DNA of 64,000 nucleotides from Bradyrhizobium elkanii USDA 76. GTDB lineage: Bacteria; Pseudomonadota; Alphaproteobacteria; Rhizobiales; Xanthobacteraceae. Below the pieces are notes generated by a model. The model had not been told where the DNA came from, made no database searches, and saw only the letters and a program-made list of their open reading frames with translations. This document shows, in pieces, positions 8,562 through 27,808 of this stretch; position 1 is the first letter of the stretch, and each line of letters starts with the position of its first letter. The translations under genes and the position numbers were made by a program. The stretch lies in assembly GCF_023278185.1 (NCBI RefSeq), contig NZ_CP066356.1, forward strand, positions 2,348,001-2,412,000. Reading direction: 5' to 3'.

Positions 8562-9437
8562 ATGACGACAGCCGAACTGGTCAGCGTGTTCACGGTGGAT
8601 GGGCAGGGCGGCAATCCCTGTCCGATCGTGGTGGATGCAAGCGGCATGAGCGCGTCCGAGATGCAGGACGTCGCCCGCCGCAATGGCCACGAGTCCGGCT
8701 TCGTGCTGCCGGCGCAGAGCGACGATTTCGACGCGACGTTCCGTTTCTTCGTGCCGAACCACGAAATGGAAATGTGCGGCCACGCCACCATCGGTGCGCT
8801 CTGGCTGCTTGCGCGCCAGGGAAAGTTGCCGGGCGACACCGTCCGGATCTCGACGCGCAGCGGTCCGGTCACCGGCTTCATCAGCCGTGATCGTGGTGGC
8901 GAGCCGCGTGTCGAGATCACCCAGCCGGTCGGGAAGACCGTTCCGCTCACCACGGGGCAGCGCGACGATGTCCTGCGGGCGCTCGCGGTCGGGCCGCAAG
9001 CGAACGACGCGGCAACACCGTGCAACGCCGTCACATCGCGGATCAAGACGCTCGTTCCGATGCGCTCGCCCGAAGCGCTGAATGCGCTCGATCCCGCCAT
9101 AGGGGACGTCGAGGCGGTCTGCGGCCGGATCGGATCGACCGGGCTCTATCCATTCGCCGTGATCGACCGAAAGGCTCGCCTGTTCGAGGCGCGGCAATTC
9201 CCGCGCTCCTCCGGCTATCGGGAGGATGCCGCAACCGGCATTGCGGCCGCGGCGCTGGCGTTCGGTCTGCTCGACTATGGCTTGGTCGCTCCCGATGACG
9301 ACGAGATCCGAATCCTGCAGGGCAGGGCGATGGGGCGACTGTCCGAGATTCGCGTCCGCATCGGCTTCGCCGGCGGCCGTCCCGTCGGCTGCCTGCTTGG
9401 CGGCAATGTCGCGCTGATGGCCGCGCCGTCACACTGA
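8562..9437 (+). CDS. PhzF-family isomerase/epimerase
   Basis: 291 aa. The PhzF fold signature is present: the N-terminal VSVFTVDGQGGNPCPIVV, catalytic Glu in NGHESGF (E44, equivalent to E45 of PhzF), FFVPNHEMEMCGHATIGA, and the second-half EDAATGIAAAALAFGL. PhzF relatives act on phenazine intermediates, amino-acid-like compounds or unknown metabolites; none of the other phenazine genes is present, so a phenazine role is unlikely. Start ATG at 8562; ribosome site weak. Tail-to-tail with the HxlR regulator gene, 47 bp apart. Confidence 0.82.
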   Translation: MTTAELVSVFTVDGQGGNPCPIVVDASGMSASEMQDVARRNGHESGFVLPAQSDDFDATFRFFVPNHEMEMCGHATIGALWLLARQGKLPGDTVRISTRSGPVTGFISRDRGGEPRVEITQPVGKTVPLTTGQRDDVLRALAVGPQANDAATPCNAVTSRIKTLVPMRSPEALNALDPAIGDVEAVCGRIGSTGLYPFAVIDRKARLFEARQFPRSSGYREDAATGIAAAALAFGLLDYGLVAPDDDEIRILQGRAMGRLSEIRVRIGFAGGRPVGCLLGGNVALMAAPSH

Positions 9438-9484: not shown

Positions 9485-9991
9485 CTAATCAGCGGCGCGC
9501 CTGGCCCGCTCCTGCGCCTTGGCGTGCACCGGTGAGGATTTCCGCGCACCGGGGCCCGGATGGACGTGGACCGCCTTCGCGCTCAACGGCTCGCCGCATT
9601 CCGAACAGACCATGACGGGATCGAACATCTTCTTGCAGGTCTTGTGTTCGTGCAGCATCGGCCGGCCGCGCGAATCGACCATGTGGACGTTGCCCCAGTG
9701 CACGATCGACATGATGATCGGATAGAGGTCGAGCCCCTTCTGCGTCAGGATGTATTCGTAGCGCTTCGGCGCCTCCTGATACGGGATCTTGCGCAGCACG
9801 CCGAACCGCACCAGCTTCTTCAGCCGGTCGGCGAGCAGATGCCGGGTGATTCCGAGCGACGCCTGGAAGTCATCGAACCTGCGGATGCGCAGGAAACATT
9901 CGCGCAGGACCAGCAGGCTCCAGCGGTCGCCGATGACAGCCACCGTGCGGGCCACCGAGCACGGCTCCTCCTCGAGGGCATCCCATTTCAT
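9485..9991 (-). CDS. HxlR-family winged-helix transcriptional regulator
   Basis: 168 aa from the second of two close ATGs (9989-9991), which has AGGAG 6 bases upstream; the first ATG (9997) touches the ribosome site. The HxlR signature C-SVARTVAVIGDRWSLLVLR is followed by the wing region (FDDFQASLGITRHLLADRLKKL, Y.LT.KG..L.P). HxlR proteins are small dimeric regulators that respond to electrophiles or aromatic ligands. The C-terminal extension has a CxxC pair (CSECGEPL) plus a preceding Cys (HKTCKKMF), so a zinc knuckle or redox sensor is possible. It is divergent from the twelve-gene catabolic run and two matching dyads lie between them, so it is the obvious local regulator. Confidence 0.88.
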   Translation of the reverse strand: MKWDALEEEPCSVARTVAVIGDRWSLLVLRECFLRIRRFDDFQASLGITRHLLADRLKKLVRFGVLRKIPYQEAPKRYEYILTQKGLDLYPIIMSIVHWGNVHMVDSRGRPMLHEHKTCKKMFDPVMVCSECGEPLSAKAVHVHPGPGARKSSPVHAKAQERARRAAD

Positions 9992-10030
9992 CAGCATCTC
10001 CTGCGGTCGGCGACGACATTGCTGCTTAAA

Positions 10031-10045
10031 TTCTAAAACAGAACT
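10031..10045. promoter_or_regulatory. Proposed HxlR operator 1
   Basis: TTCTAAAACAGAACT, a near-perfect dyad about 40 bp upstream of the regulator start. It shares all but one base with the second site at 10118-10132. Repetition of a symmetric 15-mer inside one divergent intergenic region is strong evidence of a regulator site, most simply that of the adjacent HxlR protein, for autoregulation. Confidence 0.6.
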
Positions 10046-10115
10046 AATGTCATTTCAATAGGATGCCTCGATGGCAGCCGTGACATGGCGATTGGATGAC
10101 AAATATCATATTGAC

Positions 10116-10132
10116 AGTTCTAAAATAGAACT
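10116..10132. promoter_or_regulatory. Proposed HxlR operator 2 in the catabolic promoter
   Basis: AGTTCTA-AAA-TAGAACT, a perfect 7-bp inverted repeat with a 3-base spacer, 64 bp before the first gene of the operon. A TTGACA hexamer (10111-10116) abuts it, so a bound repressor would cover the promoter. The centre is about 87 bp from operator 1, roughly eight helical turns, compatible with two dimers on the same DNA face. Confidence 0.65.
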
Positions 10133-10196
10133 TAAGGTCCCGACACGATCAACGCTGCGGCTGACGGCCGCCGGCAATCGAAGGGAAGGGCGTTCC

Positions 10197-10835
10197 ATGG
10201 CTGCTCCGCTCGAGGTCGAATTCCATTTCGATTTTGGAAGTCCGAACGCCTACCTGGCGGAGCTGGCGCTGCCCGGCATCGAGAAGCGCACCGGCGTGAA
10301 ATTCGACTACATCCCGGTGCTGCTCGGCGGCGTCTACAAGGCGACCGGCAACATGTCGCCCGGCGAGTCGCTGCGCGGCATCAAGAACAAGCCCGAATAC
10401 AACGCGCTCGAGACCGAGCGCTTCCTGCGCCGCCACAACATCACGACGTTCAGGACCAACCCGTTCTTTCCGGTCAACACGCTGATGCTGATGCGCGGCG
10501 TCGTCGCTGCCGATTTCGAAGGGCTGTTCGAGCCGTACTTTCGCGCCGCCTATCACCACATGTGGTCCGAGCCCAAGAAGATGGACGATCCGCAGGTGTT
10601 CCGCGAAGCATTCCTGTCCTCGGGCCTCGATATCGACCGCATCATCGCCCGCGCCCAGCAGGACGAGGTGAAGAAGAAGCTGATCGACAACACCAGCAAC
10701 GCGGTGGCGCGCGGCTCGTTCGGCTCGCCGACCTTCTTTGTCGGCGACGAGATCTTCTTCGGCAAGGACAAGCTGCGCGAGGTCGAGGACGAGATCGTCG
10801 CGCAGCTGGCCGCGGGGCGGCGCAAGACCGCCTGA
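10197..10835 (+). CDS. 2-hydroxychromene-2-carboxylate isomerase-like protein (DsbA/GST-kappa fold)
   Basis: 212 aa from ATG 10197 (GAAGGG upstream). The frame is open further upstream but that part overlaps the operator region. Motifs: FHFDFGSPNAYLAEL at the N-terminus, with a Ser where DsbA has its active Cys, VLLGGVYKATGN, and the C-terminal ARGSFGSPTFFVGDEIFFGKD, typical of the NahD/glutathione-S-transferase kappa group. NahD isomerises 2-hydroxychromene-2-carboxylate in naphthalene breakdown with glutathione as cofactor. Here it opens a CoA-type catabolic operon, so a related glutathione-dependent isomerisation or CoA-linked step is more likely than naphthalene itself. Confidence 0.85.
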   Translation: MAAPLEVEFHFDFGSPNAYLAELALPGIEKRTGVKFDYIPVLLGGVYKATGNMSPGESLRGIKNKPEYNALETERFLRRHNITTFRTNPFFPVNTLMLMRGVVAADFEGLFEPYFRAAYHHMWSEPKKMDDPQVFREAFLSSGLDIDRIIARAQQDEVKKKLIDNTSNAVARGSFGSPTFFVGDEIFFGKDKLREVEDEIVAQLAAGRRKTA

Positions 10836-10892
10836 GCGGGAGTTCCTCAAGACGACAAATCAGGCCCAAAGGGCTGTCACAGGGAGGTTTCA

Positions 10893-12437
10893 GTGCAGGC
10901 GTCGACCCAGTTTGAAGGAAGTGTGGAAGGCTTGCCGAACCGCATCCACGAGGTGATCGATCACCACGTCGGGGCGACGCCGGATCATCCGGCGCTGATC
11001 GACGACAAGACGCGGCTGACCTACCGCGAGCTCGATCGAACGGTCGGTCGCGTCGCCGAGGCGTTGCGGGCACTCGGCATCCGCGCCGGCGACCGCATGA
11101 TGATCGTGAGCGAGAATTCGATTCCGCTGGCCTGCCTGCTGCTGGCGACGAGCCGGCTCGATGTCTGGTCCATCGTGGTCAATCCGCGGCTGTCGCCGCG
11201 TGAATTGGATCAGATCAGGGATCACAGCGGCGCCCGCCGCGTGCTGCTGACCGCCGAGGTCTCGCAGGAGGCGGCCACGCATGCCGCGCGTTACGAGGCG
11301 ACCGTGCAGGATGTCGGCCCGCTCCGCGGCATCGCCGTCACCGGCCTGAACCTGACAACCGTGGCGGAGCCGGTCGAGGCCGACGGCGCCAATCAGGTCG
11401 CGGTCCTCATCTACACCTCCGGTACCACGGGCACGCCAAAGGGCGTGATGCTGACCCATCGCAATCTGTTGTTCAGCGCCCGGGCGACGGCAAGCTTCCG
11501 CAAGATGGCGGCCGATGACGTACAGTATTGCGTGCTGCCGATCTCGCATATCGTCGGCATCTCGTTGCTGACGATGACCCTGATGATCGGCGCCACCGTG
11601 CGTCTGGTGGCGAAATACGATCCGGCCGCGCTGGTCAAGGCGATGACTGAAGAGGGCATCACGATCCTGAACGGCGTGCCCGCGACCTATCAGCGCCTGC
11701 TCGAATACCGGCGCAATGCCGGCCTGCCGAAGCTCGATCGCGGCCGGTTGCGGGTGATCTCGGTGGCCGGCGCGCCGCTCGACCTCGATCTCAAATCACG
11801 GGTCGAGCAGGAGCTCGGGCTGCCGCTGCTCAACGGCTATGGCATCACTGAATGCTCGCCGGGCATCTCCGGCGTCCGGCCCGACAATCCGCGCGCGGAT
11901 CATGCGGTCGGCACCGTCATGCCGGGCCTCGAGGCAAAACTGGTCGGCCGTGACCTCAAGCCGGTTGGGGCAGGGGAAGTCGGCGAGCTGCACGTTCGCG
12001 GTCCGAACGTGATGCGCGGCTATTACCGCGCGCCCGACCTGACCGCGAAGGCGATCGATCCCGACGGCTGGTTCAACACCGGGGATCTGGCCCGCTTCGA
12101 GAATGATGCGCTCTACATTGTCGGGCGAACCAAGGAGATGATCATCCGCTCCGGGTTCAACGTCTATCCGGCCGAGATCGAGGCGGTGCTGAGCACGCAC
12201 GACGCCGTGGTGCAGTGCGCCGTGGTCGGCCGGCCGGTCGAGGGCAATGAGGAAGTGGTCGCCTTCGTGCAGCTGATCAAGGGCTCGACCGCCACGGTAC
12301 AGGACCTGATGGCCCATATTGCCCCGCAACTCACCTCGTACAAGCGGCCGTCGGAGATTATCCTGATGGACGCGCTGCCCGCGACATCGACGGGCAAGCT
12401 GCTGAAGCACAAGCTGGCGGAATCGCTGCGCGGCTGA
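10893..12437 (+). CDS. Acyl-CoA synthetase (AMP-forming)
   Basis: 514 aa from a GTG with GGGAGG 7 bases upstream. It activates a carboxylic acid to acyl-CoA through an acyl-AMP. Seen: the P-loop-like YTSGTTGTPKGVMLTH near residues 171-186, the A5 segment NGYGITECSPG, the hinge GWFNTGD plus VGRTKEMIIRSGFNVYPAEIE, and the catalytic Lys in the C-terminal TSTGKLLKHKL. It is of the size of medium-chain or aromatic acid ligases; substrate not predictable. Likely the entry step of the pathway encoded downstream. Confidence 0.93.
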   Translation: MQASTQFEGSVEGLPNRIHEVIDHHVGATPDHPALIDDKTRLTYRELDRTVGRVAEALRALGIRAGDRMMIVSENSIPLACLLLATSRLDVWSIVVNPRLSPRELDQIRDHSGARRVLLTAEVSQEAATHAARYEATVQDVGPLRGIAVTGLNLTTVAEPVEADGANQVAVLIYTSGTTGTPKGVMLTHRNLLFSARATASFRKMAADDVQYCVLPISHIVGISLLTMTLMIGATVRLVAKYDPAALVKAMTEEGITILNGVPATYQRLLEYRRNAGLPKLDRGRLRVISVAGAPLDLDLKSRVEQELGLPLLNGYGITECSPGISGVRPDNPRADHAVGTVMPGLEAKLVGRDLKPVGAGEVGELHVRGPNVMRGYYRAPDLTAKAIDPDGWFNTGDLARFENDALYIVGRTKEMIIRSGFNVYPAEIEAVLSTHDAVVQCAVVGRPVEGNEEVVAFVQLIKGSTATVQDLMAHIAPQLTSYKRPSEIILMDALPATSTGKLLKHKLAESLRG

Positions 12438-12488
12438 GGCTGAGCCGTCGCCGCAAGCCAGTCCACTCAAACAAGACCGGAGAACACC

Positions 12489-13226
12489 ATGCAGAAGCGA
12501 AACAGGACGGTGGCCGTCATTGGTGCCGGTGATTTCATCGGCGGCGAGATCGCCAAGAAGTTCGCCTCCGAGGGATTCACGATCTTCGCCGGCCGCCGCA
12601 ACGGCGACAAGCTGGCGCCGCTGGTCAAGGAGATCGAGGCGGCAGGCGGCGAGATTCACGCGCGCTCGCTCGATGCGCGCAAGGAGGAGGAGATCACGGC
12701 CTTCCTCAACGATGCCGACAAGCATGCGCCGCTCGAGGTCTGCATCTTCAATATCGGCGCCAACGTCAATTTCCCGATCCTCGAGACCACCGAGCGCGTG
12801 TTCCGCAAGGTCTGGGAGATGGCCTGCTACTCCGGCTTCCTCGCCGGACGCGAAGCGGCGCGGCTGATGATGCCGCGCGGCGAGGGCAACATCTTCTTCA
12901 CCGGCGCCACCGCCTCGCTCCGCGGCGGCAGCGGCTATGCCGCCTTTGCCAGCGCCAAGTTCGGTTTGCGCGCCGTGGCGCAGGCGATGGCCCGCGAGCT
13001 GGGGCCGAAGAACATCCATGTCGCGCATCTGATCATCGATTCCGGCGTCGACACCGAATGGGTGCGGCAGCGCCGTATCGAGGCGCTCGGCCCGAACGCG
13101 CTCGACAATCCCGATCTCTTGATGCCGCCGGCATCGGTCGCGGGCGCCTATTGGCAGCTCTATCAGCAGCCGAAGAGCGCCTGGACCTTCGAGTTGGAAA
13201 TCCGGCCCTTCGGCGAGAAGTGGTAG
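12489..13226 (+). CDS. SDR-family protein with Phe in place of the catalytic Tyr
   Basis: 245 aa. A Rossmann start (VAVIGAGDFIGGEIAKKF) and helix region are normal for short-chain dehydrogenases, but the active-site motif reads F153-ASA-K157 instead of YxxxK, and the usual Ser 13 residues earlier is not present at that spot (TGATASLRG). The C-terminus ends FELEIRPFGEKW, nearly the same as the second SDR of this operon (20663-21364), which has the same Tyr to Phe change. The two are paralogues of one subfamily. They may reduce substrates by another mechanism or act without redox chemistry. Confidence 0.85.
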   Translation: MQKRNRTVAVIGAGDFIGGEIAKKFASEGFTIFAGRRNGDKLAPLVKEIEAAGGEIHARSLDARKEEEITAFLNDADKHAPLEVCIFNIGANVNFPILETTERVFRKVWEMACYSGFLAGREAARLMMPRGEGNIFFTGATASLRGGSGYAAFASAKFGLRAVAQAMARELGPKNIHVAHLIIDSGVDTEWVRQRRIEALGPNALDNPDLLMPPASVAGAYWQLYQQPKSAWTFELEIRPFGEKW

Positions 13227-13238
13227 GGAGCACGGCAG

Positions 13239-14420
13239 ATGGAGCTCGCGCTATCCCCTGAAGATGCGGCGTTCCGCGACGAGGTTCGTGCCTTCATCAA
13301 GGACAATTATCCGGCGGAGATGCGCGTCGCCAATCCGGAGACCGATCTCTCCAAGGAGCAGATGCTGCTGTGGCATCGCATCCTGCACGACAAGGGTTGG
13401 ATCGCGCCGCTCTGGCCAAAAGAATACGGCGGGCCCGGCTGGTCGATCACCCGCCGCTTCATCTTCGAGCAGGAAACGACGCGCGCCGGCACCATGCCGC
13501 CGCTGGCGTTCAGCGTCACCATGGTCGGCCCGGTCATCTACACCTTCGGCAACGACGCGCAGAAAAGGAAATTCCTGCCGCGCATCCTGTCCGGCGAGGA
13601 CTGGTGGTGCCAGGGCTATTCGGAGCCGGGCTCCGGCTCCGACCTCGCCACCGTGCGCACCAAGGCGGTGCGCGACGGCGACCACTATATCGTCAACGGC
13701 CACAAGACCTGGACCACGCTGGCGCAGCACGCCGACTGGATCTTCTGCCTGGTCCGCACCGATCCCACGGCCAAGCCGCAGTCCGGCATCTCGTTTCTCC
13801 TGATCGACATGAAGTCGCCGGGCGTTACGGTGCGCCCGATCATCACGATCGACGGTTCGCACGAGGTCAACGACGTGTTCCTGGAGAACGTGCGTGTCCC
13901 CGCCGAGAACCTGATCGGTGAGGAAAACAAGGGCTGGACCTACGCCAAATTCCTGCTCGGCAATGAGCGCACCAGCATGGCCGGCATCGGCCGCTCGACA
14001 CGCTATCTCGAACGGTTGAAGAGGATCGTCAAAGCGGAGATTCCGGAAGACGATCCGGCGCATCTGGAGTTCATCAGGGATATCGCCCGCGTCGAGCTCG
14101 ACGTGCTGGCGCTGGAGGCGACCGAGCTTCGTGTCGTCGCCCAGATGGCGCGCGGCATCGACCCGGGACCGGCGGCCTCGCTGTTCAAGATCCGCGGCAC
14201 CGAAATCTTCCAGGATATCACCGAGCTGACGCATCGGGCGATCGGCAATTACGGGCTTGCGATCCGCGAGCATCCGGTCAGCGCCAACCACTTCATGCCG
14301 GGCCCCGACTACGGCCACACCGCGTCTGAGAAATATCTGAACTCGCGCAAGCTCTCGATCTACGGCGGGTCGAACGAGATCCAGCGCAACATCATCGCCA
14401 AGGCAGTGCTTGGGCTCTAG
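13239..14420 (+). CDS. Acyl-CoA dehydrogenase, large subunit type (PimC-like)
   Basis: 393 aa, FAD enzyme that introduces an alpha-beta double bond into acyl-CoA. Seen: the LWPKEYGGPGWS segment, FAD-binding QGYSEPGSGSDLA, KTWTTLAQHADW, and the C-terminal SRKLSIYGGSNEIQRNII. At the C-terminal position where MCAD-type enzymes have their catalytic Glu (YEGT) this protein has Gly (YGGS). That is common in the paired subfamilies such as the pimeloyl-CoA dehydrogenase and mycobacterial steroid enzymes, where one active site is formed with or in a partner. The partner gene follows after 20 bp. Confidence 0.9.
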   Translation: MELALSPEDAAFRDEVRAFIKDNYPAEMRVANPETDLSKEQMLLWHRILHDKGWIAPLWPKEYGGPGWSITRRFIFEQETTRAGTMPPLAFSVTMVGPVIYTFGNDAQKRKFLPRILSGEDWWCQGYSEPGSGSDLATVRTKAVRDGDHYIVNGHKTWTTLAQHADWIFCLVRTDPTAKPQSGISFLLIDMKSPGVTVRPIITIDGSHEVNDVFLENVRVPAENLIGEENKGWTYAKFLLGNERTSMAGIGRSTRYLERLKRIVKAEIPEDDPAHLEFIRDIARVELDVLALEATELRVVAQMARGIDPGPAASLFKIRGTEIFQDITELTHRAIGNYGLAIREHPVSANHFMPGPDYGHTASEKYLNSRKLSIYGGSNEIQRNIIAKAVLGL

Positions 14421-14440
14421 CAACCGCGCGAGAGGATCGG

Positions 14441-15571
14441 ATGGATATCCAGTTCACGGAAGAGCAGGAATTGTTGCGGTCCAGCGTCCAGCGGCTGCTG
14501 CGCGACCAGTATGATTTCGACGCCCGCCGCAAGATCGTCGCAAGCGAGGAGGGCTTTGGCCGCAGGCAATGGGCCGAATTCGCCGAGCTCGGCCTGCTCG
14601 CCGCGCCGTTCTCGGAAGCGGTCGGCGGGCTCGGCGGCGGGCCGCTGTCGACCATGATCATCATGCAGGAGTTCGGCCGGCATCTTGTCGTGGAGCCGTT
14701 CGTCGAGACGGTCGTCGTGGCGGGTGGCTTGATCGAGCAGGCGGGCTCTGACGCGCAGAAGCAAGCCCTCATTGCCGACATCATCGCAGGCACGAAACTG
14801 TGGGCGCTGGCCTGGACCGAGAAGGGCTCGCGCTTCGATCTCGCGACCGTCACCACCACGGCGCGCCGCGACGGCAACGATTATGTGCTCACCGGCGAGA
14901 AGACGGCGGTGTTGGCCGCGCCGTGGGCGGATTATCTGATCGTCTCCGCGCGCACCTCGGGTCATCGCCATGATCGTGGCGGGGTCAGCCTGTTCGTGGT
15001 CGATCGCCACGCCGCCAATCTCGATTTACAGAGCTTCAGGACGATCGACGGCCGCCGGGCGGCCGAGATCAGCCTGCGTGGCGTACGCGGTGAGCTGCTC
15101 GGCAGGGAGGGCGAGGGCGTCGCCGCGCTGGAGGCCTGCCGCAACCGCGCCATCGGCGCGCTCTGCGCCGAGGCGGTCGGCGCGATCGGCGAACTGAACG
15201 CGGCGACCCTGGACTATTCCAAGACGCGAAAGCAGTTCGGCGTCACGATCGGCAGCTTCCAGGTGCTGCAGCATCGGATGGTCGACATGTTCATCGCGCA
15301 TCAGGAGGCGTTGTCGCTGATGCAGCACCTCAGCCTCAGTCTCAGTGACGACGAGGCCGGCGTCTCCCGGCTCGCCTCGGGCGCCAAGTCGAAGATCGGC
15401 TATGCCGGCAAGTTCGTCGCCGACCAGGCGGTGCAGCTCCATGGCGGCATGGGCATGACCGACGAGCTCAATGTCGGCCACTACTTCAAGCGGATTTCCT
15501 CCATCAACATCCAGTTCGGCGATCCCGCCTACCACGTGCTGCGCTATGCGCAGCTCGACGCGGTCGCTTAA
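14441..15571 (+). CDS. Acyl-CoA dehydrogenase, small subunit type (PimD-like)
   Basis: 376 aa. The N-terminal acyl-CoA dehydrogenase domain ([20 protein letters not shown]), middle beta domain ([16 protein letters not shown]) and C-terminal helical domain with [20 protein letters not shown] are present. It lacks several FAD-contacting residues that the large subunit keeps, as usual for the second chain of heterotetrameric dehydrogenases. With the preceding gene it should form an alpha2-beta2 enzyme acting on bulky or dicarboxylic acyl-CoAs. Inference of the pairing rests on adjacency and family memory. Confidence 0.88.
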
Positions 15572-15587
15572 AGCCAGAGAGGCAAGC

Positions 15588-16775
15588 ATGTCACAGGATG
15601 CAGTCATCGTTTCCACCGCGCGCACCGGCGTCGGCAAGGCCTATCGCGGCGCGCTCAACAACACCGACGGCCCGACTTTGGCCGGCCATGTGATGGCCGA
15701 GGCGGTGAAGCGCGCCGGCATCGCGCCCGGCGAGGTCGAGGACGTGGTGATGGGCTGCGCCATGCAGCAGGGAACCATGGTGATGAACGTCGCACGCAAG
15801 GGTGCCATCCGCGCCGGGCTGCCGGTGACGGTCGCCGGCACCACCATCGACCGGCAATGCGCCTCCGGCCTGCAGGCGATTGCGGTCGCCGCCCGCTCGG
15901 TGATGCTTGACGGCGTCGAGATCGCGATCGGCGGCGGCATCGAGTCGATCAGCCTGGTGCAGAACGAGCACATGAACAGGTTCCATGCCGTCGACGACGA
16001 GCTGATGGCGATGAAGCCCGAGATGTACATGTCGATGCTGGAGACCGCCGAGGTCGTCGCCGAGCGCTATGGGATCGGGCGCGACAAGCAGGACGAATAC
16101 AGCCTGGAGTGCCAGCGCCGCGTCGGCGCCGCGCTGCAGGGCGGGCGCTTCAACGACGAAATCGTGCCGATCACGACAAAAATGGCTGTGGTCAACAAGG
16201 ACACCAAGGAAGTCAGCTACCAGCAGGTGACGCTGGCGAAGGATGAGGGCCCGCGGCCGGATACCACGGCGGACGGGCTCGCCAAGATCAAGCCGGTGTT
16301 CGAGGGCAAGACCATCAGCGCCGGCAACGCCAGCCAGCTCTCGGATGGCGCATCGGCCTGCGTGATCATGAGCGACAAGATCGCCGCGCAGAAGGGCTTG
16401 AAGCCGCTCGGCATATTCCGCGGCTTCGTTGCCGCCGGCGTCGAGCCGGACGAGATGGGCGTCGGCCCGGTCGCCGCGATCCCGCGGCTCCTCAAGCGGC
16501 ATAACCTCAAGATCGCCGACATCGACCTCTGGGAGCTCAACGAGGCCTATGCGGTGCAGGTGATCTATTGCCGCGACAAGCTCGGCATCGATCCCGAGAA
16601 GCTGAACGTCAACGGCGGCTCGATCGCGATCGGCCATCCCTATGGCATGACCGGCGCGCGGCTCACCGGCCACCTCTTGATCGAGGGCCGGCGGCGCAAG
16701 GCGAAATACGGCGTTGTGACCATGTGCATCGGCGGCGGCATGGGCGCGGCAGGCCTGTTCGAAATCGTCCACTGA
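15588..16775 (+). CDS. Acetyl-CoA acyltransferase (thiolase)
   Basis: 395 aa from the ATG at 15588 with AGAGAGG upstream. Cleaves 3-ketoacyl-CoA with CoA. The catalytic triad motifs are complete: nucleophilic Cys in [10 protein letters not shown] (C91), His in [19 protein letters not shown] and the second Cys in [20 protein letters not shown] is also canonical. It closes the beta-oxidation-like cycle of this operon. Confidence 0.94.
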
Positions 16776-16796
16776 GCGGCAACGCGGGAGAGACTT

Positions 16797-17807
16797 GTGA
16801 AGACAGCAATCACTGAACTGTTCGGCATCCAGCATCCGATCATCCAGGGCGGCATGCACTATGTCGGCTTCGCCGAGATGGCGGCGGCGGTGTCCAATGC
16901 CGGCGGCCTTGGCATCATCACCGGCCTGACCCAGCGGACGCCGGAGCTGCTGGCCAAGGAGATCGCGCGCTGCCGCGACATGACCGACAAGCCGATCGGC
17001 GTGAATCTGACCTTCCTGCCGAGCTTCACCGCGCCGCCCTATCCGGAATATATCGCAGTTATCCGCGAGGGCGGCGTCAAGGCGGTGGAGACCGCGGGCC
17101 GCAGCCCGGAGCAGTACATGCCGGCGCTGAAGGCGGCCGGCATCAAGGTGATCCACAAATGCACCTCGGTGCGGCATTCGCTGAAGGCCGAGAAGATCGG
17201 CTGCGACGCGGTCAGCGTCGACGGCTTCGAGTGCGGCGGCCATCCCGGCGAGGACGACATTCCGAACATGATCCTGCTGCCGCGCGCGGCGGACGAATTG
17301 AAGATCCCGTTCGTCGCCTCGGGCGGCATGGCGGACGCGCGCAGCCTCGTCGCCGCGCTGTCGATGGGCGCGGCCGGCATGAACATGGGCACCCGCTTCA
17401 TCGCGACCAAGGAAGCGCCGGTTCATCCCAATGTGAAGCAGGCGCTGCTCGACGCCGACGAGCTCGATACGCGCCTCGTGATGCGCGCGCTGCGCAACAC
17501 CGAGCGGGTGCTGAAGAACAAGGGCGTCGATGAGCTGCTCGAGATCGAGCGCGAGAAGGGCGCCAGGCTGAAGATCGAGGATATCCACGAGCAGGTTGCC
17601 GGCGTCTATCCGAAGGTGATGATCGACGGCGAGATGGATGCCGGCGCCTGGAGCTGCGGCATGGTGGTTGGCCTGATCAATGACATCCCGACCGTCAAGG
17701 AGCTGATCGACCGCATCATGGCCGAGGCCGAAGCGATCATCCGGCAGCGGTTGACCGGCTTCCTCGACGGCAAGTTCGAAACCACGCCGGCCCGCGCGGT
17801 CGCCTGA
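16797..17807 (+). CDS. Nitronate monooxygenase / enoyl-reductase-like FMN protein
   Basis: 336 aa from a GTG. TIM-barrel FMN protein of the 2-nitropropane dioxygenase group: HPIIQGGMHYVG at the N-terminus, GVNLTFLPSF, DGFECGGHPGEDDI and the FMN phosphate loop VASGGMADARSL plus GAAGMNMGTRFI. True nitronate monooxygenases oxidise alkyl nitronates, but many members in catabolic operons have unknown roles and relatives reduce enoyl thioesters (FabK). In this setting between a thiolase and a crotonase an acyl-CoA reduction or desaturation role is as likely as nitronate detoxification. Confidence 0.87.
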   Translation: MKTAITELFGIQHPIIQGGMHYVGFAEMAAAVSNAGGLGIITGLTQRTPELLAKEIARCRDMTDKPIGVNLTFLPSFTAPPYPEYIAVIREGGVKAVETAGRSPEQYMPALKAAGIKVIHKCTSVRHSLKAEKIGCDAVSVDGFECGGHPGEDDIPNMILLPRAADELKIPFVASGGMADARSLVAALSMGAAGMNMGTRFIATKEAPVHPNVKQALLDADELDTRLVMRALRNTERVLKNKGVDELLEIEREKGARLKIEDIHEQVAGVYPKVMIDGEMDAGAWSCGMVVGLINDIPTVKELIDRIMAEAEAIIRQRLTGFLDGKFETTPARAVA

Positions 17808-17819
17808 CGGGAGAGTGCC

Positions 17820-18593
17820 ATGACCGAGCATGTCAAGGTTGAGATCGCCGCCGGCGTGATGACGCTGACCTTGCAGCGGCCGGAAAAGAAGAACGCGCTG
17901 ACCGGCGCGATGTACAATGTCATGTCCGCGGCGCTCAAGCAGGTGGAGGCGGATGCCTCCGTCCGGGTGATCCTGTTCCAAGGCGACGGCGACAGCTTCA
18001 CCGCGGGCAATGATCTGGCTGACTTCGCAAGCCAGGCGCGCGGTGAAAGCGCGGTCGACAGTCCGGCCCACACTTTCATCGAAACCATCAGCAAGGTTGG
18101 CAAGCCGATCGTCGCGGCCGTGCAGGGCAACGCGGTCGGCGTCGGCACCACCATGCTGCTGCATTGCGACCTGGTCTATCTCGCCGAGAACGCGCGGCTG
18201 ATCACGCCGTTCGTCAACCTCGCGCTGGTGCCAGAGGCGGCGTCGAGCTGGCTGCTGCCGCTTCGGATCGGGCACGCGCGCGCCTATGCGATGTTCGCGC
18301 TCGGCGAGCCGATGGATGCGCAAGGCGCGCTGGCATCGGGCCTCGCCAATGCCGTGGTGCCGCAGCCCGATCTGCGCAAGAGGGCGCATGACGCGGCGGT
18401 CGCGCTGACCAGGCGGCCGGCAGGGTCGCTCGGCATGACCAAGAAGCTGATGCGCGAGCAGCAGAAGATCGCGGCGCAGATCGCCGAGGAAGGCGTGCTG
18501 TTCAAGGAGCGGTTGACGACGCCGGAGGCGCGCGAGGCCTTCGCCGCCTTCGCCGAACGGCGTCAGCCCGATTTCACCAAGCTGTCGGCCTGA
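17820..18593 (+). CDS. Crotonase-family protein, enoyl-CoA isomerase-like
   Basis: 257 aa. Oxyanion-hole segments are present (FTAGNDLADF and GNAVGVGTTMLLHCD). The active-site stretch reads NLALVPEAASSWLLPLRIG: the P-E-x-x-S-S pattern and position of the single acid resemble delta3,delta2-enoyl-CoA isomerases (ECI2: PEGCSS) more than classic two-Glu hydratases. So it may move a double bond rather than, or as well as, hydrate it. That would suit substrates with misplaced unsaturation. ATG directly after the 12-bp gap from the previous gene. Confidence 0.88.
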   Translation: MTEHVKVEIAAGVMTLTLQRPEKKNALTGAMYNVMSAALKQVEADASVRVILFQGDGDSFTAGNDLADFASQARGESAVDSPAHTFIETISKVGKPIVAAVQGNAVGVGTTMLLHCDLVYLAENARLITPFVNLALVPEAASSWLLPLRIGHARAYAMFALGEPMDAQGALASGLANAVVPQPDLRKRAHDAAVALTRRPAGSLGMTKKLMREQQKIAAQIAEEGVLFKERLTTPEAREAFAAFAERRQPDFTKLSA

Positions 18594-18630
18594 CCCCGGG
18601 AATTCACGGACACATCGAGGGAGTGAAAGC

Positions 18631-19791
18631 ATGCGCGTCACCGGCAGCCATCAATACCCGACCATGGAATCCGTGATCTACGGCAAGCCGGCGGCCGAAG
18701 CGCTGCGCGAGGAGGCCGAGCGGCTGGACGCCAGGCGCGTCTATCTGATCGCCAGCCGGACGTTGAACACCACGACCGACGAGATCGAGAAAATCCGTCA
18801 AGCGCTCGGCGACCGCCATGCCGCGACCTTCGACGGTGTGCCGCAGCATACGACGCGCGACGTGGTGACGCAGATCGCGCGGCAAGCCGGCGAGGCCAGG
18901 GCGGACCTTGTCGTCGCGATCGGCGGTGGCTCGGTGGTCGATGCGGCGAAGATCGTGCTGATGTGCATGGAGCACGAGATCTTCGAGCCTGATGGCCTCG
19001 ACGGCTTCGAGACCACGCCGGACCGCCGCTTCGGGCCATTCCGCACGCCGAAGGTCCGGATGATCGCGATCCCCAGCACGCTCTCCGGCGGCGAATACAA
19101 TTCCGGCGCGCTGGTCACCGATACCAGCCGCAAGCTGAAGCAGATCTTCAACCATCCGATGATGATGCCGCGCAGCATCATCCTCGATCCCGCGATCACG
19201 AAATATACGCCCGAGAAGCTCTGGCTCGGTTCCGGCACGCGGGCGATGGATCACGGCATCGAGGCGATCTGCTCCAGCCGCCCCAATGTGCTGGTCGACG
19301 CGGTGTGCCGGCAGGGGCTGCGCTATCTGCACGACGGCCTGCTGCGCACCAAGGCCCACCCCGACGATGCGGCGGCGCGGCTGAGCTGCCAGCTCGGCTC
19401 CTGGCTGTCGGCGTTCGGATTGCAGTCACGGGTGCCGATGGGCGCCAGTCATGCCATCGGCCATGTGCTCGGCGGCACCTGCGACGTGCCGCATTATTTC
19501 TGCACGGCGGTGATGATGCCGAGCGTGCTCCGCTACAACCGCCCGGCGACGGAGGCAGCCCAGCAATCGATCGCCGCCGCGCTCGGCGCGCCGGGGCGCG
19601 ATGCCGGCGAAGCCTTCGCGGCGTTCATCGCGGAACTCGGCCTGCCGCGGCGGCTTGCCGATGTCGGCGTCGGCGAGGATCGGTTTGAGCTGATCGGCCG
19701 GAACGCCATGCTGTCGATCTTCACGCGCGCCAACCCGCAGCCGATCCGCGAACCCGGCGACGTCGTCAAGATCCTGAAGCTGGCCGCCTGA
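18631..19791 (+). CDS. Iron-containing alcohol dehydrogenase family protein
   Basis: 386 aa. Dehydroquinate-synthase-like fold with NAD-binding AIGGGSVVDAAKI and the metal ligands spread as in the family: Asp and His in MDHGIEA, His in GASHAIGHVLGG and His in VPHYFCTAVMMP. The group includes maleylacetate reductases and 1,3-propanediol or butanol dehydrogenases. IPSTLSGGEYNSGALVTD differs from the usual maleylacetate reductase loop, so I do not assign that activity. It probably oxidises or reduces a hydroxy/keto intermediate of the operon pathway. Confidence 0.86.
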   Translation: MRVTGSHQYPTMESVIYGKPAAEALREEAERLDARRVYLIASRTLNTTTDEIEKIRQALGDRHAATFDGVPQHTTRDVVTQIARQAGEARADLVVAIGGGSVVDAAKIVLMCMEHEIFEPDGLDGFETTPDRRFGPFRTPKVRMIAIPSTLSGGEYNSGALVTDTSRKLKQIFNHPMMMPRSIILDPAITKYTPEKLWLGSGTRAMDHGIEAICSSRPNVLVDAVCRQGLRYLHDGLLRTKAHPDDAAARLSCQLGSWLSAFGLQSRVPMGASHAIGHVLGGTCDVPHYFCTAVMMPSVLRYNRPATEAAQQSIAAALGAPGRDAGEAFAAFIAELGLPRRLADVGVGEDRFELIGRNAMLSIFTRANPQPIREPGDVVKILKLAA

Positions 19792-19816
19792 GGCATTAGC
19801 ACCGGAGCAGTCCACC

Positions 19817-20623
19817 ATGGCCGCCTTGCGCATCTTCTCCTATTTGCCGAACCCGCGGGTCTGGAAGGCGACCATCGCGGCGCGGTTCTGCGGTGTCGAT
19901 GTCGAGGTCAGGGGCGCCTCCGGCAAGGAGTTGCGCGACTGGCTGTGGGACTATGATGCCCGCCCGCTGGCGGAGCACGAGCGCGCCTCGCTGTCGTCGC
20001 TGGCGCGGACCGGGCGGGTCGGACTGACCGGCGCGCAGCTCTTCAAGACCGATGCGTTCATGGCGGCGCAGCCGTTCGGCAATGTGCCGGCGGCATTCGG
20101 CGCCGACGGCAAGGTCGGGATCTTCGAATCGAACAGCATCATGCGCGCGGTGGCGCGGCTCGGCGAGGCAGCGTTCCCGCTCTACGGACGCGACGCCTAC
20201 GAGGCGTCGAGGATCGACAGCTTTCTCGATGTCAGCCTGGTGTTTGCGCGGGACTCGCAAATCTATCTGCTGGCGCTGTCGGGCGGCACCGCCGATGCGG
20301 CCATCCATGCGCGGGCCAAGGATGCATTCGCGATCTACGCCTCGGGGATCGAGCAGGCGCTGTCGCCCCGGCGGGAGGCGCTGGTCGGGAACGGCATCTC
20401 GATTGCCGACATCTGCTTTGCCGCTGAACTCGCGCTGTTCATGAACGAACACGCGCGGGCCGAGCAACTGCGCAAGCAGGGATTGGCGAATATCCTGCAC
20501 CCGGGCGTGCGGGATGAGTATCCGCTGATGTTTGCCCACTTTGACCGGCTGATCGCGCACGAGCATGTCAGGCCGGACCTCAAGCCTTATGTCGAGAAGT
20601 TGCTGTCGAAGGCGGCCGCCTGA
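19817..20623 (+). CDS. Glutathione S-transferase-like protein
   Basis: 268 aa. The N-terminal thioredoxin-like domain (RIFSYLPNPRVWKATIAARF, then ESNSIMRAVARLG) carries the E-S-N glutathione-binding pair in place of the usual ES/DS-xxI motif, and the C-terminal helical domain follows (DAYEASRIDSFLDV, ISIADICFAAEL with the N-capping Asp). Resembles EF1B-gamma-like or fungal-type GSTs. With the NahD-like isomerase it gives two glutathione-type enzymes in the operon, which points to glutathione-dependent chemistry in the pathway. Confidence 0.8.
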   Translation: MAALRIFSYLPNPRVWKATIAARFCGVDVEVRGASGKELRDWLWDYDARPLAEHERASLSSLARTGRVGLTGAQLFKTDAFMAAQPFGNVPAAFGADGKVGIFESNSIMRAVARLGEAAFPLYGRDAYEASRIDSFLDVSLVFARDSQIYLLALSGGTADAAIHARAKDAFAIYASGIEQALSPRREALVGNGISIADICFAAELALFMNEHARAEQLRKQGLANILHPGVRDEYPLMFAHFDRLIAHEHVRPDLKPYVEKLLSKAAA

Positions 20624-20662
20624 CCATGAAGGCCATGGGCCGCAAAGCGGAGGGTTGATCGC

Positions 20663-21364
20663 ATGACCGCACCCGTCTGCCTGATATCCGGGGTTGGTCC
20701 CGGCACGGGCTCGGCGCTCGCCAGGAGATTCACCGAGGGCGGCTATCGCGTCGCCCTGCTCGCCAGGAACGAGGCGCGTCTTGCCGCGCTCGAGCAGCAG
20801 TTGCCGGGCGCAAAGGCCTATCGATGCGATGTGTCCGATCCCGCGCAAGTCGAGGCGGTGGCCTCCGCCGTGGAGCGCGATCTCGGCGATCCCACCGTGG
20901 TCATTCATAACGCCGTCGGCGGGGCGTTCGGCACCTTCCGCGAGATCGATCCGGAGATTCTCAATCGCAACTTCCAGGTCAACACGATGGGACTGTTGTA
21001 CCTGGCAAGGCGATTTGCCCCGGCGATGATCGGTGCGGGCAAGGGCGCCATCGTCGCGACCGGCAACACCTCGGCGTTGCGCGGCAAGGCCGGCTTCGCG
21101 GGGTTCGCGCCGACCAAGGCAGCGCAGCGGATCCTCGCCGAGGCGATGGCCCGCGATCTCGGGCCGCAAGGGGTTCATGTCGCCTACCTCGTGATCGATG
21201 CGGTGATCGATCTGGAGTGGACGCGCGAGCGCTGGCCGGATCGGCCGGACGACTTTTTCATCAAGCCGAAAGCGATCGCCGACGAGGTCTGGCACGTCGC
21301 CCATCAGGATCGCAGCGCGTGGTCGTTCAATGTCGAGATCAGGCCGTTCGGCGAAGTCTGGTAG
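20663..21364 (+). CDS. Second SDR-family protein with Phe in place of the catalytic Tyr
   Basis: 233 aa, Rossmann start CLISGVGPGTGSALARRF and NAVGG region. The active-site motif is F148-APT-K152, so the catalytic Tyr is Phe, and the upstream stretch TGNTSALRG matches TGATASLRG of the first SDR. The C-terminus SFNVEIRPFGEVW matches the first one almost residue for residue. Both lie at opposite ends of one operon, which argues for a shared fold and perhaps a heteromer or successive steps. Confidence 0.83.
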   Translation: MTAPVCLISGVGPGTGSALARRFTEGGYRVALLARNEARLAALEQQLPGAKAYRCDVSDPAQVEAVASAVERDLGDPTVVIHNAVGGAFGTFREIDPEILNRNFQVNTMGLLYLARRFAPAMIGAGKGAIVATGNTSALRGKAGFAGFAPTKAAQRILAEAMARDLGPQGVHVAYLVIDAVIDLEWTRERWPDRPDDFFIKPKAIADEVWHVAHQDRSAWSFNVEIRPFGEVW

Positions 21365-21419
21365 CGCCGCGCGCCGGTCGCGAGAGTTGGTCAATTCATA
21401 AAAGCTCAGGGGGAATTTC

Positions 21420-22622
21420 ATGCTGTTGAAGACGTTTGCCGTGTCCGTTGCGATGCTCGCGGCGCTTGCCGTGGCTCCAGTCCGCGCCGAAACGCCGGGG
21501 GTGTCGGAGTCGGAAATCAAGGTCGGGGCGACGTTCCCGTTCAGCGGCCCGGCGTCTCCGCTCAGCAACACCGGCAAGGGCCTCATCGCCTACGTCCATT
21601 CCGTCAATGACCGCGGCGGCGTCAACGGCCGCAAGATCAACCTCATCACCTATGACGATGCCTACACGCCGCCCAAGGCCGTGGAGCAGACCCGCAAGCT
21701 GATCGAGAGCGACGAGGTGGCGTTCCTGTTCAGCCCTCTCGGCACGCCCGGCATCGGCGCGACCATCAAATACGTCACCGCAAAGAAGGTGCCGCATCTG
21801 TTCGTCGTCAGCGGCGCGACCAAGTTTGCGAACTTCACCGAGTTTCCGCTGACCACCACGGGGCTGCCGAGCTACAACACCGAAGGAAAGATCTACGCAA
21901 AGTACATCACCCAGACGGCACCCGATGCGAAGATCGCGGTCCTCTACCAGAACGACGATCTCGGCCGCGATTTCGTGGCCGCGTTCAAGGAGGTGCTGAA
22001 GGCCGATTTCGACAAGAAGGTGGTGACGTCGCCCTATGAGGTCACCGAGCCGACCATCGAATCCCGCGTGGTGACGTTGAAGGCGTCGGGCGCGCAGGCG
22101 TTCCTGATCGCCGGCACGCCGAAATTCGCGGCCCAGGCGATCAAGAAAGCGAACGAGACCGGCTGGTCGCCGCTGACCATCGTCAACTACGTGTCGAGCT
22201 CGGTTTCCGCGACCATCGTGCCGGCGGGAGCCGACAAGGCGGTGGGCGTTGTCGTGGCGACCATCACCAAGGATCCGAACGACAGGAAGTGGGCCGACGA
22301 TTCCGGCATGAAATGGTATCGCGCCCATTTCGAGAAATATCTTCCCGGCGCCGACATCGGCGACAACAATTATCTGTTCGGCACCCAGCAGGGGCAGATC
22401 CTCGAACAGGTGCTGAAGCAGTGCGGCGACGATCTGTCGCGCGAGAACATCGTGAAGCAGGCGCGCAACATCAGGGGGCTCGTGCTGCCGACCCTGATGC
22501 CGGGCATCACCATCAACACAGGTCCGGACAACAGCATGGCCTATACGCAGCTGCAGCTGCAACGCTGGACCGGAAGCTCGTGGGAGCAGTTCGGCGGCGT
22601 GCTGAGTGCCGACCTGAACTGA
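21420..22622 (+). CDS. ABC transporter solute-binding protein, LivK/aromatic-acid type, without transporter genes
   Basis: 400 aa with a Sec signal (MLLKTFAVSVAMLAALAVAP to VRA) and the type I periplasmic binding fold of the branched-chain amino acid family (ESEIKVGATFPFSGPASPLS, NDRGGVNGRKINLI, YDDAYTPPKAVEQTRKLI). Members in soil bacteria often bind aromatic or cyclic acids. GGGGG-type site AAGCTCAGGGGG precedes the ATG. It is last in the operon; no permease or ATPase gene is near, so the protein must use a transporter encoded elsewhere or act as a sensor. Only 18 bp separate it from the convergent gene. Confidence 0.9.
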   Translation: MLLKTFAVSVAMLAALAVAPVRAETPGVSESEIKVGATFPFSGPASPLSNTGKGLIAYVHSVNDRGGVNGRKINLITYDDAYTPPKAVEQTRKLIESDEVAFLFSPLGTPGIGATIKYVTAKKVPHLFVVSGATKFANFTEFPLTTTGLPSYNTEGKIYAKYITQTAPDAKIAVLYQNDDLGRDFVAAFKEVLKADFDKKVVTSPYEVTEPTIESRVVTLKASGAQAFLIAGTPKFAAQAIKKANETGWSPLTIVNYVSSSVSATIVPAGADKAVGVVVATITKDPNDRKWADDSGMKWYRAHFEKYLPGADIGDNNYLFGTQQGQILEQVLKQCGDDLSRENIVKQARNIRGLVLPTLMPGITINTGPDNSMAYTQLQLQRWTGSSWEQFGGVLSADLN

Positions 22623-22640: not shown

Positions 22641-24197
22641 CTAGTGGAGCCGACGTGCGATCGGCTTCGCCAGCGTGCCTTGCCACTCCCGCTGCAATGA
22701 CTGGTCGCTTGACCGCAGGCTGTTCAGCAAGGCCGCGGTCTTCGGCTGGACCCGCGAGCCGTCGATCACCTCGAGCTGGCCGCAGCGGTTGAGCGTGTGC
22801 AGCTTGCGTCCGGTCCACAGCGGCCCGGGTTTGAGCAGATGGCGCACGGCCTGCTGGTAGGTCGTCGGCGACAGTTCGAGCACTTCCGCAAGTCCGAGCG
22901 CCGCGCCGTATCCGTTGGTGCAGTCCTGCACCGGCCGCCACAGCTTGCCATTGATGGTCACGAAATTGCCGGCCGGCCGCGTCGTCGCGCGATCCATCAG
23001 GATCGGATTGCTTGCATGCGGCCGCCAGGGGCCGAACAACTGCTCGGCGTAATAGATCGCCAGCGTGTCGGAATATCCGCCGGTGCCGTCGCGCCAGGCT
23101 CCGAACATGTAGTAGAGGCCGTCATGCCGCGTGATGGTCGCGTCGGCGAGTTCGAGCCCGGCCAGCAGCGTGCCTTGCCGTTCCCACTTGTCGGGAAAGC
23201 GGACGCATTTGTAGATCGGGACATCCCGATGCGCGGTGCTTTCCGGAATCATCCACAGTTCGCCGTTGTTCTCGATCAGGAACGGGTAGGACAGGTGCCA
23301 GGGTTCCTCGAGCACAGGCAGCACGGTGCCGACCGGTCCGTTGCCGTCGAATTCGATCGCGGAGATGATGCCCTTGCCGGTGCGGTGGTCGAGGTCCTCG
23401 AAGAACACGAAGGTCCTGCCCTGCCACTTCACCGGGACGGGATCGGCATAGAAGTGATTGCCGGGATCGCCGAGCACGTTCCAGGCAGGTCCCGACAGGT
23501 CGCCGGTCCGCCAGACATCCGCGTTGTCGGCGTAGCGCCAACCGACATGCCAATGCGGCGCGTAGCAGCAGAGACGGTAGATTTCCTTCGCGATCGAGGT
23601 CGCGACGCCGCGCAGGACAAAGGGCACGGGATTTCGCGGCGCGCTGCCGGCCGCCGGCACAGCCAGTTGCGGGACCAGCCGCGGAGCGCCCGACAGGATC
23701 GGCGGCAGCATGGACAGGGTGCGCGCCATCACCGTTTCGAGCCCGCCGCTCAGGCCGGCGGCGATTTCCGCTGAGGGATGGCCGCGGTCCATCACCGTGC
23801 CGTCGAGCTCGTTGACGATCTCAATCACCGGCAGGTCGCCGGCGAGAATGGCGGCCAGTGCGGCGACTTCTCCGACCTGCCCGTTGAAGCGTGGACGGAG
23901 ATAGAGCCTAGGGGAGCAGTTCGGGTCCCGCTCGGCCGTGGTGAAGTCGACCACCACGTCGGGGTTGCCCATGCGCGGCCGTTCCGCAATCGTCTTCAGC
24001 CTGTCGGCGTCGCCCGCCTTGCCCTTGCGCAGCACGATGCGTTCGAGCTCGAACAGCATGTCGAGGCCGGCGAGCCTCGGCCCCGGCGTCGTAGTCCAGG
24101 CGATTTGAACGGGAATATCCTGATCGCTGACGCGCAGCATCTCGCGACGCATCCAGAGCCGCGCCTGCGCACGATCGCAGCGAAACTCGATAATCAT
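22641..24197 (-). CDS. GINT1-like beta-propeller protein with formyltransferase-like N-terminus
   Basis: 518 aa. The C-terminal ~300 residues look like the five-bladed propeller found in plant glucosamine inositolphosphorylceramide transferase 1 and in bacterial polysaccharide clusters (HFYADPVPVKWQGRTFVFFED, ENNGELWMIPESTAHRDVPIYK, TITRHDGLYYMFGAW, RPAGNFVTINGKLWRPVQD). These propellers resemble family 43 glycosidases. The N-terminal 190 residues end in VIEIVNELDGTVMDRGHPS and may be a sugar-nucleotide or formyl/acyl-transfer module. It is in the exopolysaccharide region, 15 bp downstream of the GT4 gene on the same strand, so both probably modify the same glycan. Confidence 0.75.
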   Translation of the reverse strand: MIIEFRCDRAQARLWMRREMLRVSDQDIPVQIAWTTTPGPRLAGLDMLFELERIVLRKGKAGDADRLKTIAERPRMGNPDVVVDFTTAERDPNCSPRLYLRPRFNGQVGEVAALAAILAGDLPVIEIVNELDGTVMDRGHPSAEIAAGLSGGLETVMARTLSMLPPILSGAPRLVPQLAVPAAGSAPRNPVPFVLRGVATSIAKEIYRLCCYAPHWHVGWRYADNADVWRTGDLSGPAWNVLGDPGNHFYADPVPVKWQGRTFVFFEDLDHRTGKGIISAIEFDGNGPVGTVLPVLEEPWHLSYPFLIENNGELWMIPESTAHRDVPIYKCVRFPDKWERQGTLLAGLELADATITRHDGLYYMFGAWRDGTGGYSDTLAIYYAEQLFGPWRPHASNPILMDRATTRPAGNFVTINGKLWRPVQDCTNGYGAALGLAEVLELSPTTYQQAVRHLLKPGPLWTGRKLHTLNRCGQLEVIDGSRVQPKTAALLNSLRSSDQSLQREWQGTLAKPIARRLH

Positions 24198-24212
24198 GTC
24201 CAGCCCAATTTC

Positions 24213-25514: not shown

Positions 25515-25579
25515 TTAGTGCGGTCAGACATCGCCAGCAATCGAGAGCCATTGTCTCACACAAAGGGTACAGCCGGCTC

Positions 25580-25630: not shown

Positions 25631-25682
25631 ATAGATATTTACGTTGGAGCAGTACTGTCAGTTGAATTCGAGTCACAGCCTC

Positions 25683-27791: not shown

Positions 27792-27808
27792 AGGCGGTTC
27801 GGCTGAAG

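Follow-up and report, generated by a model that had tools for sequence, protein, structure and literature searches.

A candidate CoA-type catabolic operon of Bradyrhizobium elkanii with two pairs of glutathione-fold proteins and tyrosine-less short-chain dehydrogenases

Passages of PMC10057887 and PMC9804861 describe the glutathione routes for isoprene (isoGHIJ) and styrene (styGHIJ) as combining a glutathione S-transferase (GST), a short-chain dehydrogenase/reductase (SDR), a coenzyme A (CoA) ester and beta-oxidation. Here we describe twelve consecutive genes that share this logic in a 64,000-nucleotide stretch of Bradyrhizobium elkanii USDA 76 (hereafter the window; C1:2348001-2412000 of a 9.5-Mb genome in two contigs), where they occupy positions 10197-22622 and appear to form a catabolic operon. 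Unlike the isoprene and styrene sets, the operon has no monooxygenase, has an acyl-CoA synthetase (ACS) for the CoA transferase, and has two SDRs without the catalytic Tyr; beyond those sets, it unites a kappa-type GST-like protein, a flavoprotein of the nitronate monooxygenase (NMO) fold, a thiolase and two acyl-CoA dehydrogenase (ACAD) subunits. To judge from the kinds of parts, the operon may work most like these routes; that likeness does not show it to be the same pathway. What is new here is that both SDRs belong to a clade with Phe for Tyr, whose members often lie beside glutathione-fold genes.

The initial annotation had called the two SDRs odd. The oddness is the replacement of the catalytic Tyr of the YxxxK motif by Phe, which is found in all 164 rows of the SDR1 alignment and in 166 of 167 rows of the SDR2 alignment (matches of at least 30% identity, before dereplication), and in 77 of 79 sequences of the dereplicated clade, the other two having Tyr. 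Other hallmarks of classical SDRs are kept. The Lys of YxxxK is present in 74 of the 79 sequences (Cys in five), and the first, third-position and last Gly of the glycine-rich NAD(P) motif are conserved at 0.92-1.0 across the clade, the middle Gly of GxxxGxG being replaced by Phe in SDR1. At the position usual for the catalytic Ser, located in the alignment by the customary spacing, SDR1 has Ala and SDR2 has Asn. The clade does not appear decayed, because it keeps residues of its own: R37, N88, F153, K157, H177, D184, Q227, W232, R239, E243 and W245 in SDR1 numbering, with the His, Asp, Gln, Trp, Arg, Glu and Trp falling in the second half of the protein. The NCBI domain library includes a subgroup of classical SDRs in which typical active-site residues are missing. 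The nearest solved structure to SDR1, PDB 3h7a, is a clade member that also reads FASAK; it is named 'short chain dehydrogenase' with no assigned role, presumably comes from Rhodopseudomonas, and its code was found in no paper of the open-licence PMC literature.

An Arg after strand 2, conserved in 76 of 78 clade sequences, fits NADP(H), and the usual Tyr is likewise missing from 2,4-dienoyl-CoA reductase, also an SDR. Both points, together with the plain CoA chemistry of the remaining gene set, speak for an explanation that we regard as unlikely though not far-fetched, namely that an unsaturated or branched acid goes through ordinary beta-oxidation. In that case the Tyr-less SDRs would be NADPH-dependent enoyl- or dienoyl-CoA reductases with another proton donor, and the glutathione-fold proteins auxiliary isomerases, with no adduct on the main path. 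The company kept by the clade argues otherwise, since it includes several glutathione-fold families (kappa/2-hydroxychromene-2-carboxylate (HCCA) isomerase, GST_N types and the GST type of the window), beyond what an isomerase alone explains.

The association was counted at 60 clade loci of Alphaproteobacteria, taken from about 150 places, mostly in rank order without the very best and with about 20 hand-picked lower down. A glutathione-fold gene, meaning an HCCA-type or GST match at phmmer E<=1e-5, lies within 3 kb at 28 of these 60 loci. Among ordinary SDRs the count is 2 of 40 in the own genome (a single-genome control) and 1 of 40 in genomes of the same class, where the SDRs were hand-picked below the strongest matches. 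HCCA-type genes make up 20, 0 and 0 of these cases and GSTs 8, 2 and 1. Within about 1 kb the counts are 24/60, 1/40 and 1/40, which is an undercount where a contig end shifted the frame. Fisher values for the pairing (4e-6 against the own genome, 4e-7 against the same class) are indicative, as the loci were not drawn at random and many are related by descent. The GSTs were found with six GST queries, some of them drawn from SDR neighbourhoods, which may favour the test set. A Pfam check on adjacent open reading frames (ORFs) is free of this bias because it does without those queries, and it agrees: DSBA occurs in 11 and GST_N models in five each of 96 neighbour ORFs (110 less 14 of at least 700 aa). 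For the 79 control ORFs (one dropped), neither DSBA nor GST_N is among the 25 families listed of 102, where a single-member family could be unlisted. The rough ORF calling missed neighbours, giving 11 loci as against 20 by tblastn. Read pairwise, the Tyr position is F in 47 of 56 test loci (four more gave no call) and Y in 15 of the 21 control loci that aligned, 19 having failed to align.

Outside Bradyrhizobium mainly two pairs are retained, SDR1 with the HCCA isomerase-like protein (HCCAiso) and SDR2 with the GST. When relatives were scanned with the GST gene of the window (one genome per species, best 80 of 139 kept), a Tyr-less SDR was found within 1.5 kb of the GST in 27 of 31 Bradyrhizobium loci and 28 of 49 others; 36 of the 49 have one within 4 kb, and eight of the 21 misses at 1.5 kb outside the genus end within 1 kb of a contig end. 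Around mostly close SDR1 relatives, 16 of 20 loci of 20 kb contain HCCAiso, several of them together with HxlR and NMO genes. Reductases occur near such pairs as well: an OYE-family and an FMN-reductase-like protein in locus L096, and an NADH:flavin oxidoreductase with a flavin reductase on plasmid p1S06B. At L088 (8126-12980) a Tyr-less SDR is followed in one run by two GST_N proteins, a GST of the type found in the window and a CurA-like reductase of the medium-chain dehydrogenase/reductase kind, which stands between GSTs and scores 356 bits (cut-off 440). The host has a second HCCAiso copy (65%) at C1:9062406 (L116, 9986-11614), adjoining a PanE/ApbA-like gene. SDR1 stands between HCCAiso and a PanE-like gene in L150, L151, L154 and L155, which are from other genera; the gap in the host is only 111 bp, and SDR1 appears to be missing from this second copy. 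Separately, in L193, L195, L197 and L198 a Tyr-less SDR adjoins a large ORF (about 980-990 aa) that is alike in all four.

It is possible, if doubtful, that the Tyr-less SDRs form an enzyme class of their own and are not worn-out dehydrogenases, acting on glutathione adducts or with a glutathione-fold partner, and that they have been shuffled among catabolic operons as cassettes of a glutathione (GSH) partner and an SDR. The window would then hold two cassettes in one pathway, a glutathione-dependent beta-oxidation branch for reactive acids. Among open-licence PMC papers no description of the gene set or of the SDR/GSH pairing was found. If true, the proposal would give a testable biochemical role to a widespread, unexplained SDR group, with the solved structure 3h7a at hand, and would add a second glutathione-dependent route into beta-oxidation beside that for isoprene and styrene. 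We find the operon moderately interesting; the pairing may surprise specialists and is directly testable.

The genes of the array and its control region are collected in Table 1. All twelve are on the + strand in the order HCCAiso, ACS, SDR1, ACAD1, ACAD2, thiolase (THL), NMO, crotonase (ECH), iron-containing alcohol dehydrogenase (FeADH), GST, SDR2 and solute-binding protein (SBP), with successive gaps of 57, 51, 12, 20, 13, 21, 12, 37, 25, 39 and 55 bp, so that the genes, strand, order and 12-57 bp spacing first reported are confirmed. Spacing and conserved order suggest a single operon. Promoters or transcript ends inside the run had been named as evidence to the contrary: between 10200 and 22900 no + strand sigma70-like promoter passes the scan (two matches, both on the - strand; mean of shuffles 1.7), and terminator-like matches number eight against 6.7 in shuffles.

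Table 1. Predicted features of the array and its control region (window coordinates).
Feature	Position	Strand	Evidence or remark
hxlR, HxlR-type repressor gene	9485..9997	-	divergent from operon; Pfam HxlR 73.0 bits, cut-off 20.8
Operator copy 1 (putative), ATTCTAAAACAGAAC	10030..10044	.	overlaps -10 of predicted hxlR promoter
Predicted hxlR promoter, TTGAAA-17-TAGAAT	10058 to 10030	-	promoter scan
Operator copy 2 (putative), GTTCTAAAATAGAAC	10117..10131	.	directly 3' of TTGACA box
HCCAiso, kappa-type GST / 2-hydroxychromene-2-carboxylate isomerase-like	10197..10835	+	Pfam DSBA 101 bits; PDB 2imd 51 bits
ACS, AMP-forming acyl-CoA synthetase	10893..12437	+	AMP-binding 301.6 bits
SDR1, Tyr-less SDR, FASAK replacing YxxxK	12489..13226	+	PDB 3h7a 447.9 bits
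ACAD1, PimC-like acyl-CoA dehydrogenase subunit	13239..14420	+	TIGR03204 487 bits, cut-off 624
ACAD2, PimD-like acyl-CoA dehydrogenase subunit	14441..15571	+	TIGR03203 373 bits, cut-off 653
THL, thiolase	15585..16775	+	PRK07108 601 bits, cut-off 615; TIGR01930 414 bits, cut-off 241
NMO-fold flavoprotein close to PA1024	16797..17807	+	Pfam NMO 206.6 bits; PDB 6e2a/2gjl 389/388 bits
ECH, crotonase-family protein	17820..18593	+	ECH_1 167.8 bits
FeADH, iron-containing alcohol dehydrogenase, accessory	18631..19791	+	family match; missing from some variants
GST-like protein, N-terminal part enlarged	19817..20623	+	PDB sequence matches, predicted model, alignment
SDR2, Tyr-less SDR, FAPTK	20663..21364	+	family match; Phe at Tyr position
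SBP, ABC-type solute-binding protein, accessory, orphan in operon	21420..22622	+	Peripla_BP_6 165.6 bits

Family matches bear out the gene families as first named (HxlR, DsbA/HCCA-isomerase-like, AMP-binding, SDR, ACAD, thiolase, NMO, crotonase, Fe-ADH and Peripla_BP_6) and support a CoA-type catabolic gene set. The two glutathione-fold assignments stand as well, by the DSBA match for HCCAiso and by PDB matches and a model for the second protein. The N-terminal SP motif of HCCAiso aligns with 2imd and 1yzx, as in the DsbA-like fold family. It shares this family with NahD, an HCCA isomerase/kappa GST, although distantly (51 bits), and the operon has no naphthalene genes. The protein of 19817-20623 matches neither Pfam (GST_N and GST_C included) nor NCBIfam, but does match GSTs in the PDB (E=1e-6, residues 77-200). 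In its predicted model (pLDDT 92.6, pTM 0.90) the order of strands and helices fits a GST, and these two lines point to a GST relationship; 44 columns, among them ESNSI, are invariant across 41 aligned sequences of its family. No NCBIfam equivalog is above cut-off for the ACS among the 25 matches listed.

That known pathways hold only some of these genes, as the initial annotation remarked, is true of pimelate. The pim operon shares an ACS, a PimC/PimD-like ACAD pair, a thiolase and a crotonase with the window, and we know of no glutathione-fold/SDR pairs among pim genes. A pimelate pathway was rejected: both ACADs score below the cut-offs of the curated models, and the true pimC of the genome (875 bits) lies far away, at C1:733502-734686. 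For steroid and benzoate routes no curated model is above cut-off among the matches listed.

Divergent from the array lies hxlR, and the region between them (9998-10196) carries two copies of one dyad, as first described. Genome-wide, RTTCTAAAAYAGAAC has exactly two matches (10030 and 10117) and the reversed control pattern none; the arms of the former copy differ by one mismatch and those of the latter are perfect. Operator 2 stands directly 3' of a TTGACA box, so that a possible operon promoter built on this box would have operator 2 in its spacer; the scan's own + strand candidate, GTGACA-18-TATCAT, ends at 10109 instead. In 55 distinct regions upstream of HxlR genes (at least 45% identity), TTCT-N5-AGAA occurs twice in 24 and once in eight. 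The two sites are 75-76 bp apart in eight of the 24 and 87-88 bp apart in 16, spacings that differ by about one helical turn, which would fit two proteins on one face of the DNA. ATTGAC just before operator 2 is invariant in 28 aligned regions, picked because the operator was present, and the operator is conserved too. A syntenic divergent HxlR gene accompanies all 19 full-length loci described below. Co-occurrence and conservation thus support one dedicated HxlR regulator with matched putative operators, and a pair of sites at a single locus would make the substrate findable via the inducer.

In the PDB the flavoprotein is closest to PA1024 (388 bits over residues 2-325 of 336), which the relevant part of PMC10033279 describes as an NADH:quinone oxidoreductase. 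A 58% paralogue lies at C1:6104353. The operon differs from the surroundings of PA1024, which we take to be ACAD, ECH and SDR genes. HxlR-type regulators are frequent sensors of electrophiles or redox stress. With a quinone-reductase-like NMO, a GST and a kappa GST also at hand, the operon could be read as detoxifying plant or soil electrophiles (enones, quinones), carbon gain being secondary; we consider this improbable, as the thiolase, two ACAD subunits, ACS and binding protein speak for carbon use.

Tentatively, and at not quite even confidence, we read the array instead as a catabolic operon of the CoA type that HxlR represses and that serves to break down an acid bearing a reactive unsaturated (enone- or quinone-like) part, which is handled by glutathione enzymes and the Tyr-less SDRs. 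The initial annotation, which had inferred a cyclic or unsaturated acid and glutathione-linked steps, is partly supported; the acid may or may not be cyclic. This reading draws on the conserved gene order, the genome-unique operator pair, the plasmid-borne versions and the statistical link between the SDR clade and glutathione-fold genes. The regulation, the sequence of steps, the kind of substrate and the part played by the pairs are inferred. Without inducer, HxlR dimers on operator 1, at its own promoter, and on operator 2, at the operon promoter, would repress both directions; repression would be lifted by an inducer that is probably the substrate itself or the CoA ester formed from it. 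The ACS may activate an organic acid to its CoA thioester, which the heteromeric PimC/PimD-like ACAD would dehydrogenate, ECH would hydrate or isomerise and the thiolase would then cleave. The enone or quinone-like part of the acid would be beyond ordinary beta-oxidation, and the PA1024-like flavoprotein and the two glutathione-fold/SDR pairs may deal with it. The chemistry of the pairs could be glutathione addition, glutathione-assisted cis/trans isomerisation or an NADP(H)-linked conversion of a glutathione adduct. The idea of an electrophile stems from the glutathione proteins, the relation to PA1024 and the reductase neighbours of such pairs elsewhere. If true, the reading would name a compound used by root-associated Bradyrhizobium strains and carried on conjugative plasmids.

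Several observations weigh against this reading. By our search 32 of the 60 Tyr-less SDR loci have no glutathione-fold gene, nor do two of the four clade members of the host (L134, L135) in the ORF lists, and in the pairwise reading nine of 56 test loci have L (5) or H (4) at the Tyr position. The neighbouring enone and quinone reductases were noted by eye, with no background count to set them against. No TTCT-N5-AGAA site occurs in 23 of the 55 HxlR upstream regions. In a phylum sample of 398 genomes the GST was found at E<=1e-8 only in the own genome. The operon contains no oxygenase, so that earlier steps, if any, lie elsewhere. Finally, homologous clusters in which only subsets co-occur, which the initial annotation had named as a contrary sign, exist in part: a plasmid version, seven loci without ECH, one without FeADH, and the pairs outside the genus.

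Looked for in other genomes, the gene order recurs within the genus, along with variants. All 12 genes are colinear with a divergent HxlR gene in 19 of the 80 GST loci, all of them Bradyrhizobium; in four of these (L029, L031, L039 and L044) one or more genes are only partly covered by a single match. In L039 the thiolase and NMO matches are each split in two and two further genes are partial, possibly through frameshifts or assembly errors. Most array proteins are 94-100% identical to their Bradyrhizobium pachyrhizi counterparts (L029). Eight further Bradyrhizobium loci keep 10-11 genes: six lack an ECH match and have the SBP (58-61% identity) relocated before the GST, one lacks ECH and SBP, and one lacks FeADH. 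These 27 full or near-full loci are all among the 31 Bradyrhizobium loci; at the remaining four (L055-L058) the GST has different surroundings. Of 59 other Bradyrhizobium genomes in a sample of relatives, 11 carry the GST at 72% identity or more. Two conjugative plasmids, p186_1 and p1S06B, carry versions of the operon. That of p186_1 has no FeADH or SBP, by annotation or match; that of p1S06B includes a CoA transferase, a second GST and a further SDR, and is followed by a set of SDR2-type, Mo-oxidoreductase, crotonase and ACS genes. Because of the subset variants in Bradyrhizobium and on p186_1, and because mainly pairs are kept outside the genus, FeADH, ECH and SBP look accessory, and the portable core appears to consist of the glutathione-fold/SDR pairs.

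On p1S06B the CoA transferase stands next to HCCAiso, GST and SDR, and the Reyranella-type loci L076 and L079 have a CaiB-like ORF (N-terminus only). Both recall the isoprene and styrene routes, which use the same kinds of parts (GST, SDR, CoA activation and beta-oxidation) in the passages of PMC10057887 and PMC9804861. The operon would be a version of such a route if its GST opened an epoxide and an SDR oxidised the adduct alcohol, with formation of the CoA ester, removal of glutathione and beta-oxidation to follow. We find this quite improbable. The 12 operon proteins include no diiron monooxygenase domain, and the genome gave no match to Phenol_Hydrox (PF02332), a weak negative because control genomes were silent too. 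The ACS takes the place of IsoG, and IsoH, as given in those passages, has GxxxGxA whereas SDR1 and SDR2 keep the third Gly, a comparison at motif level only.

Upstream of hxlR lie a Mo-oxidoreductase-like gene (5066-7387), an alpha/beta-hydrolase-like gene (7492-8535) and a PhzF-like gene (8562-9437), named from the look of their sequences and annotation in relatives. The first two stand alongside the operon in five of nine Bradyrhizobium loci read far enough upstream (L124-L127 and L129, absent from L128 and L130-L132), and for this reason the case for counting the three upstream genes as part of the system is weak. The genes downstream of the operon (22641-29302), mostly on the opposite strand, recur in about 20 Bradyrhizobium loci, which places the operon at a conserved chromosomal site.

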